64,000 bases of DNA from Ignavibacteria bacterium (GTDB lineage Bacteria > Bacteroidota > Ignavibacteria > Tepidaquicellales > Tepidaquicellaceae): positions 62,001-126,000 of the forward strand of contig JAFGII010000051.1 of assembly GCA_016929695.1 (NCBI GenBank), written 5' to 3'. The translations under genes and the position numbers were made by a program. Below, in pieces: positions 18,258-58,189 of this stretch (positions within the stretch are counted from its first letter, which is position 1; every line of letters starts with the position of its first letter). The notes under the pieces are model-generated. The model saw nothing but the letters and a program-made list of their open reading frames with translations. It had not been told where the DNA came from and ran no database searches.

Positions 18258-18280
18258 AATTTAGTCACAGAAGGGTTGAT

Positions 18281-18319: not shown

Positions 18320-18357
18320 ACTCAACCGATGAATTGAGTTTATCAGTTGAGTTTTTT
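18320..18357 (+). terminator. Hairpin of the ACTCAnCCGATGA family, terminator-like
   Basis: Left arm ACTCAACCGATGAA (18320-18333), loop TTGAG, right arm TTTATCAGTTGAGT (18339-18352): 14 positions with one mismatch and one G-T pair, then six T's. It fits a terminator for the T9SS cargo gene. Hairpins with nearly the same left arm are at 28578-28613 and, in coding sequence, 29888-29920. Confidence 0.65.
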
Positions 18358-28577: not shown

Positions 28578-28613
28578 TTTCTCATCCGATGAATAAGTTC
28601 ATTGGATGAGAAA
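28578..28613. repeat. Hairpin of the ACTCAnCCGATGA family, intergenic
   Basis: TTTCTCATCCGATGAA, loop TAAG, TTCATTGGATGAGAAA: 16 paired positions, one G-T. It lies 3 bases beyond the mnmE stop codon. On the mnmE strand it is not followed by a clear U-run, so its role as terminator is uncertain. Confidence 0.65.
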
Positions 28614-28615
28614 TT

Positions 28616-30040
28616 TCACTTTCCGATGCAAAAGTTCTCAAATATATGATTTAAAATTTCATCGTTTGTGAATTCGCCGGTGATTTCACCGAGTGACTGA
28701 ATTGCATTACGAAGGTCAAGTGAGATGAATTCACCCGACATTCCTTTATCTATGGATTCAATTGATTTTTCAAGTGATTCGATGATTTTTTCGAGGCAGA
28801 TTTTGTGGCGTGTATTCGTAAGTACAAGCAGACCTTTTTTATCAAGGTTAACTGAATAGCGGAATTTTTCCGTCATCTTGTTTTTTAAATTTTCAATGGT
28901 AGAGAGCTGGTAGATGGAAATACTGAGTGATTGAATGATTGAATGATTGAATGATTGGATAATTGGATGATTGGGTGAAAGGTCGGATTTGGAGAAGCAT
29001 AAAATACTTTTTTCAGGATTGAATTCCTTTTTGTAGTAATCAAGACTTTCTTTGATTTCTTCTTCAGAGCCGGTGCTGTCAATCAGATAGAGTATGAGGT
29101 CTGCTTCTTTAATTCTCTCATAAGTGCGCCTGACTCCCTCGGTTTCCAGTTCGTCGTAACTGAATCTCAGTCCCGCAGTATCTATCAGGTTAAACAATAT
29201 TCCGTTGATTACTATATTTTCCTGAATATAATCGCGCGTAGTACCGGGAATATTGCTTACGATAGCACGGTCAGAACTCAGAAGGAAATTAAACAGAGAA
29301 GATTTCCCGCTGTTAGGTCTGCCTGCAATGACGAGATTGATACCGTCGCGGATTACCTTGCCTGCTATGTAGGTCGAAATTATCTGCAGAAATTTTTCCT
29401 TTAATTCAATAATTTTCTTTCTCAGTTCTTCTTTCTTTACAAATTCGATATCCTCTTCTGCAAAGTCGAGTTCGAGTTCAACAAGAGAAATTACGTTTAC
29501 TAAATCTTTTCTGACACCTGAAATAAATTCCGAAAGTGAACCTTCGAGTTGTGCAATTGATGATTTATGCGCATCTTCGGTTTTCGATTTAATTAAATCG
29601 GCTACCGCCTCTGCCTGAGATAAGTCAAGTCTGCCGTTCAGGAATGCACGTTTAGTAAATTCACCGGGTTCAGCATGGCGGACACCCTTTGATAATATTA
29701 GACTCAAAATTTTACGTGTGTTCAATACTCCGCCATGTGAAGAGATTTCGACTATATCTTCACCCGTATATGAATTTGGTTTTTTGAAAATTGATATTAG
29801 AACCTCGTCAATCAGTTCTTCACCGTCGTATATATAACCGAAATGAATTGTATGGGAATTAACCTCTATGGTGCTAAAGGTTTTTTTACTCATCCGATGA
29901 GCTTTGTTCAGGGGATGAGTTTTTTTGAAAAATATTTTTTCTGTTACGGCAAATGCATCAGCACCGCTGATTCTGATGACGGAAATTGCGGATTCCGTTA
30001 ATGCAGTTGAAATTGCCGTTATTGTATCATTTAAATTCAT
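28616..30040 (-). CDS. mnmE: tRNA modification GTPase MnmE with embedded repeat elements
   Basis: A 474-residue GTPase that with MnmG modifies U34 of certain tRNAs. N-terminal folate domain starts 'NDTITAIST'; G domain has G1 'GRPNSGKS' (240-247), G2 'GTTRD' (266-270), G3 'DTAG' (287-290); the C-terminus is the family's 'FCIGK'. Three oddities: G4 is 'SKSD' (350-353) rather than NKxD; residues 356-371, between G4 and G5, are encoded exactly by six octamers of an otherwise intergenic repeat and read as 8-residue periods 'FNHSIIQS'; and residues 41-51 are encoded by a hairpin also found between genes. The frame is intact, so it is probably expressed. A permease gene ends 4 bases upstream. Confidence 0.93.
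   Translation of the reverse strand: MNLNDTITAISTALTESAISVIRISGADAFAVTEKIFFKKTHPLNKAHRMSKKTFSTIEVNSHTIHFGYIYDGEELIDEVLISIFKKPNSYTGEDIVEISSHGGVLNTRKILSLILSKGVRHAEPGEFTKRAFLNGRLDLSQAEAVADLIKSKTEDAHKSSIAQLEGSLSEFISGVRKDLVNVISLVELELDFAEEDIEFVKKEELRKKIIELKEKFLQIISTYIAGKVIRDGINLVIAGRPNSGKSSLFNFLLSSDRAIVSNIPGTTRDYIQENIVINGILFNLIDTAGLRFSYDELETEGVRRTYERIKEADLILYLIDSTGSEEEIKESLDYYKKEFNPEKSILCFSKSDLSPNHPIIQSFNHSIIQSLSISIYQLSTIENLKNKMTEKFRYSVNLDKKGLLVLTNTRHKICLEKIIESLEKSIESIDKGMSGEFISLDLRNAIQSLGEITGEFTNDEILNHIFENFCIGK
28928..28975. repeat. Octamer array inside mnmE
   Basis: Six exact 8-base units (TGATTGAA three times, TGATTGGA, TAATTGGA, TGATTGGG). Total 48 bases, 16 codons of mnmE (residues 356-371). 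Same family as 53275-53330 and 58024-58087. Confidence 0.85.
29888..29920. repeat. Hairpin of the ACTCAnCCGATGA family inside mnmE
   Basis: ACTCATCC (29888-29895) pairs with GGATGAGT (29913-29920); left side shares ACTCATCCGATGA with 28580-28592. 33 bases, 11 codons (residues 41-51), flanked on both sides by T runs on the plus strand. Confidence 0.75.
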
Positions 30041-52142: not shown

Positions 52143-53281
52143 AAATAGCAATAGTATGTTATCCGACTTACGGCGGCAGCGGGGTTGTGGCAACGGAACT
52201 GGGAAAGTTTCTGGCACTCCGCGGTCATGAAGTTCATTTTGTATCTTATGCAATTCCGTCGAGACTATCGGTTTTTATTGATAATGTATTCTATCACGAA
52301 GTGGAAATGTACAATTATCCGTTGTTCGAATTTCCTCTTTATTCGATTGCACTCGCAAGTAAACTTGTAGAGGTTGTCAAATTCAACGAAATAGATTTAA
52401 TTCACGCTCATTATGCAATCCCTCACGCTACAAGTGCATATCTCTCACGTGAAATTATTAAATCAGAACTGGACTGCAAGAAAAATATAAAAGTAGTTAC
52501 TACTTTACACGGAACTGACATAACACTTGTTGGACTTGAGCCGTCTTTTCTGAACACAATGAAATTCAGTATAGAGCAATCAGATGGTGTTACAGCTGTA
52601 TCAAATTTTCTGAAAGATAAGACAAAATCTTCATATAATATAAGAAATGAAATTGAAGTTATACCGAATTTCATAGACACAAATAAATACAGCCGCTCCG
52701 AATCGGAGGAACTCAATAACGTTAAAAAACATATTGCGCCATCGGAGGAAAAAATCGTAACCCACACTTCAAACTTCAGACCTTTAAAGCGTGTTCAGGA
52801 CGTAATAAAGATATTCAAGGAGATAAAAAAGAAAGTCCCTTCAAAATTAATGTTAATCGGCGACGGACCCGAGAGAAGCGATTGTGAAAGATTGACCAGA
52901 GAACTCGGAATTTCTGATGATGTAAAATTTATGGGTAAACAGGATTCAATTCCCGACTTATTATCGATTTCTGATCTATTTTTGATACCTTCTCAGTCTG
53001 AAAGTTTCGGACTATCGGCACTTGAAGCAATGAGCTGTTCCGTTCCCGTAATCAGTTCAAGTATCGGAGGATTACCTGAACTGAACTTGCACGGCAATAC
53101 CGGATACATAGCGGAAATAGGAGATATAGACAGAATGGCAAAGTACAGTATAGAAATATTATCAGACGAAAAAAAATATAATATATTCAGCAGAAATGCA
53201 AGAAAACGTGCGACGCAGTTTGATTCGGATAAAATCATAATGCAGTATGAAAATTTTTACGGCAAAGTTCTGTGTGATTGA
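52139..53281 (+). CDS. bshA: N-acetyl-alpha-D-glucosaminyl L-malate synthase
   Basis: A 380-residue family 4 glycosyltransferase that joins GlcNAc to L-malate, the first step of bacillithiol synthesis. 'IVCYPTYGGSGVVATELGKF' and 'HFVSYAIPSRL' are specific to BshA; 'HAHYAIPHATSAYLSREI', 'TTLHGTDITLVG', and 'IPSQSESFGLSALEAMSCS' complete the GT4 pattern with the ExFGxxxxE nucleotide-sugar site. It ends 'KVLCD' with a TGA that belongs to an octamer array. bshB and bshC are not in the window. Confidence 0.88.
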   Translation: MKIAIVCYPTYGGSGVVATELGKFLALRGHEVHFVSYAIPSRLSVFIDNVFYHEVEMYNYPLFEFPLYSIALASKLVEVVKFNEIDLIHAHYAIPHATSAYLSREIIKSELDCKKNIKVVTTLHGTDITLVGLEPSFLNTMKFSIEQSDGVTAVSNFLKDKTKSSYNIRNEIEVIPNFIDTNKYSRSESEELNNVKKHIAPSEEKIVTHTSNFRPLKRVQDVIKIFKEIKKKVPSKLMLIGDGPERSDCERLTRELGISDDVKFMGKQDSIPDLLSISDLFLIPSQSESFGLSALEAMSCSVPVISSSIGGLPELNLHGNTGYIAEIGDIDRMAKYSIEILSDEKKYNIFSRNARKRATQFDSDKIIMQYENFYGKVLCD

Positions 53282-53330
53282 ATGATTGGATGATTGAATG
53301 ATTAGATGAATAAATGATTGAATGATTGAA
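53275..53330. repeat. Octamer array across the bshA stop
   Basis: Seven units in exact 8-base register (TGATTGAA, TGATTGGA, TGATTGAA, TGATTAGA, TGAATAAA, TGATTGAA, TGATTGAA). The first unit contributes the last residue and TGA stop of bshA. Confidence 0.85.
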
Positions 53331-53374
53331 TGTCAGGTTTATTGCACAAAGGATAATGTAAGCCCTAACATGCC

Positions 53375-58023: not shown

Positions 58024-58087
58024 TTATTGGATGATTGGATTATGGGGTGATTGAATGATTGAGTGATTGAATGATTGGATGATTGGG
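58024..58087. repeat. Octamer array, eight units
   Basis: Eight 8-base units in exact register (TTATTGGA, TGATTGGA, TTATGGGG, TGATTGAA, TGATTGAG and so on) starting the base after the rlmD-like stop. Confidence 0.8.
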
Positions 58088-58088
58088 T

Positions 58089-58141
58089 ATCCCGATTCGT
58101 CTGCCGACTCATCGGGATTAAATTCCGACAATTTGGAATTT
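58089..58141. repeat. Two hairpins between octamer arrays
   Basis: ATCCCGAT (58089-58096) pairs with ATCGGGAT (58111-58118); AAATTCC (58120-58126) pairs with GGAATTT (58135-58141). They are set between two octamer arrays. Confidence 0.65.
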
Positions 58142-58149
58142 AAATTGGG

Positions 58150-58189
58150 CGATTGGATGATTGAATGATTGGGTAATTGAGTTATTGGT
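58150..58189. repeat. Octamer array, five units
   Basis: CGATTGGA, TGATTGAA, TGATTGGG, TAATTGAG, TTATTGGT in exact register, 43 bases before the porX start. Confidence 0.7.

Follow-up and report, generated by a model that had tools for sequence, protein, structure and literature searches.

In the tnpA_REP genes of subclass 2.4 (RAYT group 4), REPs lie inside the gene, between the HuH and Y motifs, and leave the reading frame undisturbed (PMC6006769). According to the part of the literature on GTAG/CGTC-tagged REPs used here, REPs occur inside genes, the tagged ones are found mostly between tandem or convergent genes near gene 3' ends, and some of them are in frame in genes, tRNA-modification and repair genes among them (PMC3733652). 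PMC3733652 also cites the palindromic elements of Rickettsia (RPE), palindromes that have likewise inserted in frame into housekeeping genes. REPs within genes, group-4 RAYT genes included, had thus been published before; what is new here is a palindrome family that crosses phyla and has no GTRG foot, together with mnmE as a host. We found no paper in the open-licence literature that contains the core sequence or its peptides.

The stretch analysed, hereafter the window, comprises 64,000 nucleotides (G000:C81:62001-126000) of a 2.78 Mb genome in 124 contigs with an estimated completeness of 99.55%. Its minus strand carries mnmE (28616-30040), an ORF of 474 aa that is complete through the C-terminal CIGK. 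The product, a tRNA uridine-5-carboxymethylaminomethyl(34) synthesis GTPase, scores above the cut-off with both NF003661 (397.7 bits) and TIGR00450 (396.1 bits). Inside the gene lies the 33-nt imperfect palindrome ACTCATCCGATGAGCTTTGTTCAGGGGATGAGT (29888-29920), which on the minus strand provides codons 41-51 and reads THPLNKAHRMS. The reading frame of mnmE is kept despite the palindrome, which adds 11 aa to a loop of the protein; an in-frame hairpin encoding residues 41-51 was what the original prediction had proposed, and both the sequence and the 474-aa ORF agree with it. We consider it likely that this hairpin is a copy of a dispersed, REP-like, transposase-linked palindrome which inserted in frame and is tolerated in a variable loop.

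The comparison with other MnmE proteins was based on an alignment of the 29 best-matching relatives. All 29 lack residues 41-51, and the palindrome lies where the protein encoded here has its extra residues; the MnmE structures 3gee, 1xzp and 3geh have an alignment gap at the palindrome-encoded residues as well. Every aligned relative thus appears to present the empty site expected for insertion of a mobile palindrome, while the contrary outcome, conservation of these residues in hairpin-free relatives, did not occur among the 29. The segment from RISG to HTIHFG comprises 28 residues in 27 of the relatives, 22 in the remaining two and 36 here. The net gain is therefore 8 aa although the palindrome encodes 11 aa, so that about three flanking codons would have been lost or replaced and the insertion junctions are inexact; the event was apparently not a clean insertion, or a deletion came after it. 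The loop region varies in sequence among the relatives, and the insertion in mnmE is known from one genome only. Two genomes of the same genus, searched with stricter filters, yielded no copies of the palindrome family, which dates the insertion in mnmE as probably later than the split from these two congeners.

Two related hairpins in the window had been noted in the original prediction, and both were recovered. An intergenic copy only a few nt beyond the mnmE stop (28580-28611) has CTCATCCGATGA in common with the mnmE palindrome, folds with -20.0 kcal/mol and corresponds to a covariance model match at C81:90577-90614 (51.9 bits, E 2.6e-13). The near-match in a terminator-like hairpin proved to be a diverged third copy, ACTCAACCGATGAATTGAGTTTATCAGTTGAGT (18320-18352), with four mismatches in the arms, T runs on its flanks and a fold of -13.1 kcal/mol; it is absent among the model matches listed for the genome. 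The pattern CTCATC-N12-28-GATGAG occurs twice in the window against 0.03 matches expected, and at 66 sites in the genome against none for the reversed control. The recurrence of the palindrome is not due to chance.

From 43 distinct copies we built a covariance model, which gave 147 strand matches in the genome; with the sites recognised by the pattern only, the list comes to about 82 palindrome sites. The mnmE copy is one of the model matches (G000:C81:91885-91923, 45.4 bits, E 4.2e-11), but its score is not independent, because this copy sits in the alignment of the model; the evidence from the arm pattern is independent. Family cores occur as 30 nt and 31 nt, the mnmE copy being of the 31-nt type (33 nt with the outer pair counted) and agreeing with the family consensus at 27 of 30 positions outside the loop. 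Across the family copies 91.3% of the cells are paired, and both sides of a pair were changed in 33 cells compared to a mean of 14.5 after shuffling, a value reached in none of 500 shuffles. These counts support a hairpin that would be maintained as such, and the stem sequence is conserved more than pairing alone requires.

The genomic setting was judged with a simple ORF call on the stretches around the 82 sites. We found 42 sites between tandem, 18 between convergent and 5 between divergent ORFs, whereas 15 lie at contig or stretch edges and 2 overlap ORFs. Since 80 of the 82 sites (including the 15 at edges) are not within an ORF although the coding fraction of these stretches is 0.84, the copies are strongly enriched between genes. 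Gene 3' ends lie at a median distance of 44 nt from the sites, 5' ends at one of 148 nt. The two ORF-overlapping sites are the one in mnmE and one at the start of a ctaB-like gene, which leaves mnmE as the sole clear internal insertion among about 82 sites and provides the intragenic count called for by the original prediction. The other copy (G000:C109; L103 1501-1587) overlaps the 5' end of the ctaB-like ORF, where its GATGAGT arm could provide the start codon, and was for this reason left out of the internal count. Some copies are part of a longer common repeat, GCGCAGATTTAAAAAGATTAAGGAATTTATA-hairpin-TAAAAAAAGAAATAAAA (L005, L006, L008, L015, L059, L067, L086, L087, L093 and L094), and some of these lie near contig ends.

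The 33-nt family thus consists of short (20-40 nt), dispersed, chiefly extragenic palindromes in many copies, as is characteristic of REPs. With the tagged REPs, as far as they are covered in the part of PMC3733652 used here, it shares the position of short palindromes near 3' ends in tandem and convergent spacers and the rare in-frame copies in genes. In contrast to these, our family has no GTAG or CGTC tag, and mnmE is not among the hosts named in that part of the source. The comparison with RPE made in the original prediction is apt in that a palindrome lies in frame in a housekeeping gene. It is a likeness of arrangement; in that source RPE have many copies in genes, whereas here one of about 82 is clearly internal, and a further difference from RPE is that for our family a transposase link was found, in other genomes.

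This link emerged from clustering the proteins encoded near CTCATCCGATGA...TCATCGGATGAG sites, which gave one recurrent family, a RAYT-type (Y1/HUH) transposase at ten loci. The proteins match NF047646 weakly, their scores of 43-60 bits being below the cut-off of 80. At eight of the ten loci (L130, L147, L181, L191, L194, L198, L200 and L201) the palindrome is in frame within the RAYT gene, where it follows the HUH motif and precedes the LRSYTRAINK segment or Y motif, as in the layout HFHLMV...THPMTSSHRMS...LRSYTRAINK...YIHQNP; at L133 and L174 it lies just outside the gene. Further copies outside the RAYT gene were found at L130 (on both sides), L147 (from Alkaliflexus imshenetskii, an array of six copies after the gene), L181, L191, L198 and L200, so that RAYT genes flanked by the same palindrome are seen in other genomes, for example at L130 and L147, but not in the genome studied here. 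Judged from the motifs, the eight loci, all in other genomes, appear to show the palindrome between HuH and Y motifs that is typical of subclass 2.4 or group 4. The likeness to subclass 2.4 (PMC6006769) extends to copies adjoining the gene and elsewhere in the genome and to Bacteroidetes hosts. Unlike the published REPs, which have a GT[AG]G foot, single or double, our palindromes end in ACTC...GAGT, and inspection of the flanks of own and foreign copies revealed no conserved 5' GT[AG]G foot at the stem base. We call the family REP-like because it is carried in and around RAYT genes elsewhere, and a variant because it behaves as published REPs do but has no GT[AG]G foot.

At the thresholds used, no palindrome-carrying RAYT gene was found in the genome itself, and the mobiliser here is therefore one that we infer. 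Two RAYT genes were considered as cognates and rejected. RAYT1 (L070 1400-2300, G000:C94) has a palindrome copy near it, yet the gene is bracketed by GTAGGACAGTCTTCCAGACTGTC palindromes, of which the genome holds about 17 copies. RAYT2 (L123 1230-2116, G000:C26) is flanked by a third, GGTTACTACGCAGGAGCGTAGTAACCAG-like palindrome type and has an internal TGA within its NF047646 match. A 148-aa ORF near the start of contig C75 gave a weak RAYT match (E 0.16). RAYT homologues of relatives from the same order had no palindrome copies nearby. The inner stem is GAAC/GTTC or GAGC/GCTC in this genome and GACT/AGTC in most RAYT-linked copies, with L181, L191, L198 and L201 being intermediate; this difference weighs against the preferred, transposase-linked reading.

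With its 33 nt the unit spans 11 codons. Frame 1 reads THPMTxSHRMS, frame 2 runs into TGA and frame 3 reads SSDDxKSSDE; being palindromic, the unit reads alike on both strands, each with one closed and two open frames. Of exact insertions into genes, some two thirds would consequently leave the frame open. Both open readings occur among RAYT genes, with frame 1 used in L147 and frame 3 in L194, as well as in other genes, and the peptide pattern THPxxxxHRMS recurs in unrelated genes elsewhere. Palindrome-containing ORFs encode a TonB receptor (L161), a GH106 protein with the palindrome ahead of the domain (L179), a GH9/deacetylase protein with the palindrome in the linker (L144), a cyclase protein with the palindrome in the C-terminal part (L152) and a protein with the palindrome in a secretion-tail region (L131). 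In the TonB receptor an in-frame block of 42 nt with the palindrome is missing from six aligned homologues, most homologous matches being 858 nt long compared to 900, and this is the cleanest palindrome insertion seen. That a unit of whole codons has two thirds of its frames open in both orientations suggests a reason for the entry of such repeats into coding regions. One might even speculate that this footless, cross-phylum palindrome was shaped by passage through the frame of its own transposase and was thereby preadapted to frame-safe insertion, for example into mnmE, but we regard this idea as doubtful.

The distribution of the family is patchy. Apart from the genome studied here, two weak strand matches were found in one genome from its own taxonomic family and a single match (E 0.0096) in one genome from a third family; of the 13 genomes in one genus of a different family of the order, 12 have 11-60 strand matches. 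Among GTDB species genomes we found CTCATCCGATGA-N3-9-TCATCGGATGAG in 92 stretches, with Bacteroidota, Ignavibacteria, one Kapaibacterium MAG and two Anaerolineales genomes as hosts; the common form across these genomes is ACTCATCCGATGACTnnnAGTCATCGGATGAGT. A search of a plasmid collection with the 33-nt query, which is a weak test, gave no match. One copy was seen in an IMG/VR viral contig (L251 12301-12332), apparently between predicted genes. In L124, L128 and L145 the palindrome lies at the centre of a far longer inverted repeat that is perfect or nearly so and might reflect a fold-back in the assembly.

Could the hairpin have arisen within mnmE by local mutation, through slippage or quasi-palindrome correction, its likeness to the family being chance or convergence? 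The segment does vary among relatives and the net gain of 8 aa does not equal the unit length, but the agreement with the consensus at 27 of 30 positions, the model E-value of about 4e-11 (with the copy in the model) and the recurrence of THPxxxxHRMS in unrelated genes elsewhere make such an origin highly improbable. Somewhat less remote, but still improbable, is that the palindromes act as intrinsic terminators or stabilise mRNA 3' ends and were selected at gene ends for this role, the mnmE copy being a misplaced one or a functional RNA hairpin. Location near gene 3' ends, stable folds and the T runs of some copies would fit such a role; it does not account for stem conservation beyond pairing, for the patchy occurrence with no copies in the congeners, or for copies in coding regions and within or next to RAYT genes. 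Mobility of the palindrome and a role of its RNA in the host could nevertheless go together.

It is also possible, although in our view unlikely, that the palindrome spreads by another route, such as a different transposase, template switching or phage transfer, and that its presence in RAYT genes is just another tolerated insertion. The missing cognate RAYT in the genome studied here, the copy in the viral contig and the RAYT homologues of same-order relatives with no copy nearby point in this direction, whereas the occurrence of copies within RAYT genes and next to them, in several independent genomes, matches the published hallmark of the RAYT/REP relationship. Under the preferred reading, insertion of a transposase-linked palindrome, a RAYT acting as single-strand HUH/Tyr endonuclease would process and copy the palindrome, and the copies in this genome would stem from a RAYT that has since been lost, that the assembly does not contain or that acts in trans. 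One copy would then have entered the N-terminal domain of mnmE in frame, just ahead of the HTIHFG motif, where it may be tolerated because the site is a variable loop, and MnmE would still work. Nearly all other copies lie between genes, presumably because most insertions into coding regions harm the protein. In this way the insertion into the frame of a housekeeping gene would be tied to a transposase-linked repeat family and be datable by the absence of that family from congeners, and the intragenic REP phenomenon, a form of gene decoration that is known but has received little study, would extend to a family with a different foot in several phyla.

Known RNA families were rejected as the identity of the palindrome, as Rfam gives just one tRNA in the window. 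The prediction that two repeat families are present in mnmE held: in addition to the palindrome the gene contains an 8-bp tandem repeat, (TGAATGAT)n (28924-28973, TRF score 72), which is in frame around NHPIIQSFNHSIIQS and belongs to a distinct repeat family. A special tolerance of mnmE for such insertions is not demonstrated by this observation, which concerns one gene in one genome. The mnmE segment holding the array is unlike that of every aligned relative. TRF gives two more arrays in the window, 53275-53332 and 58026-58086, and overall further (TGAATGAT)n repeats are located at 18274, 53275-53332 and 58026-58179.
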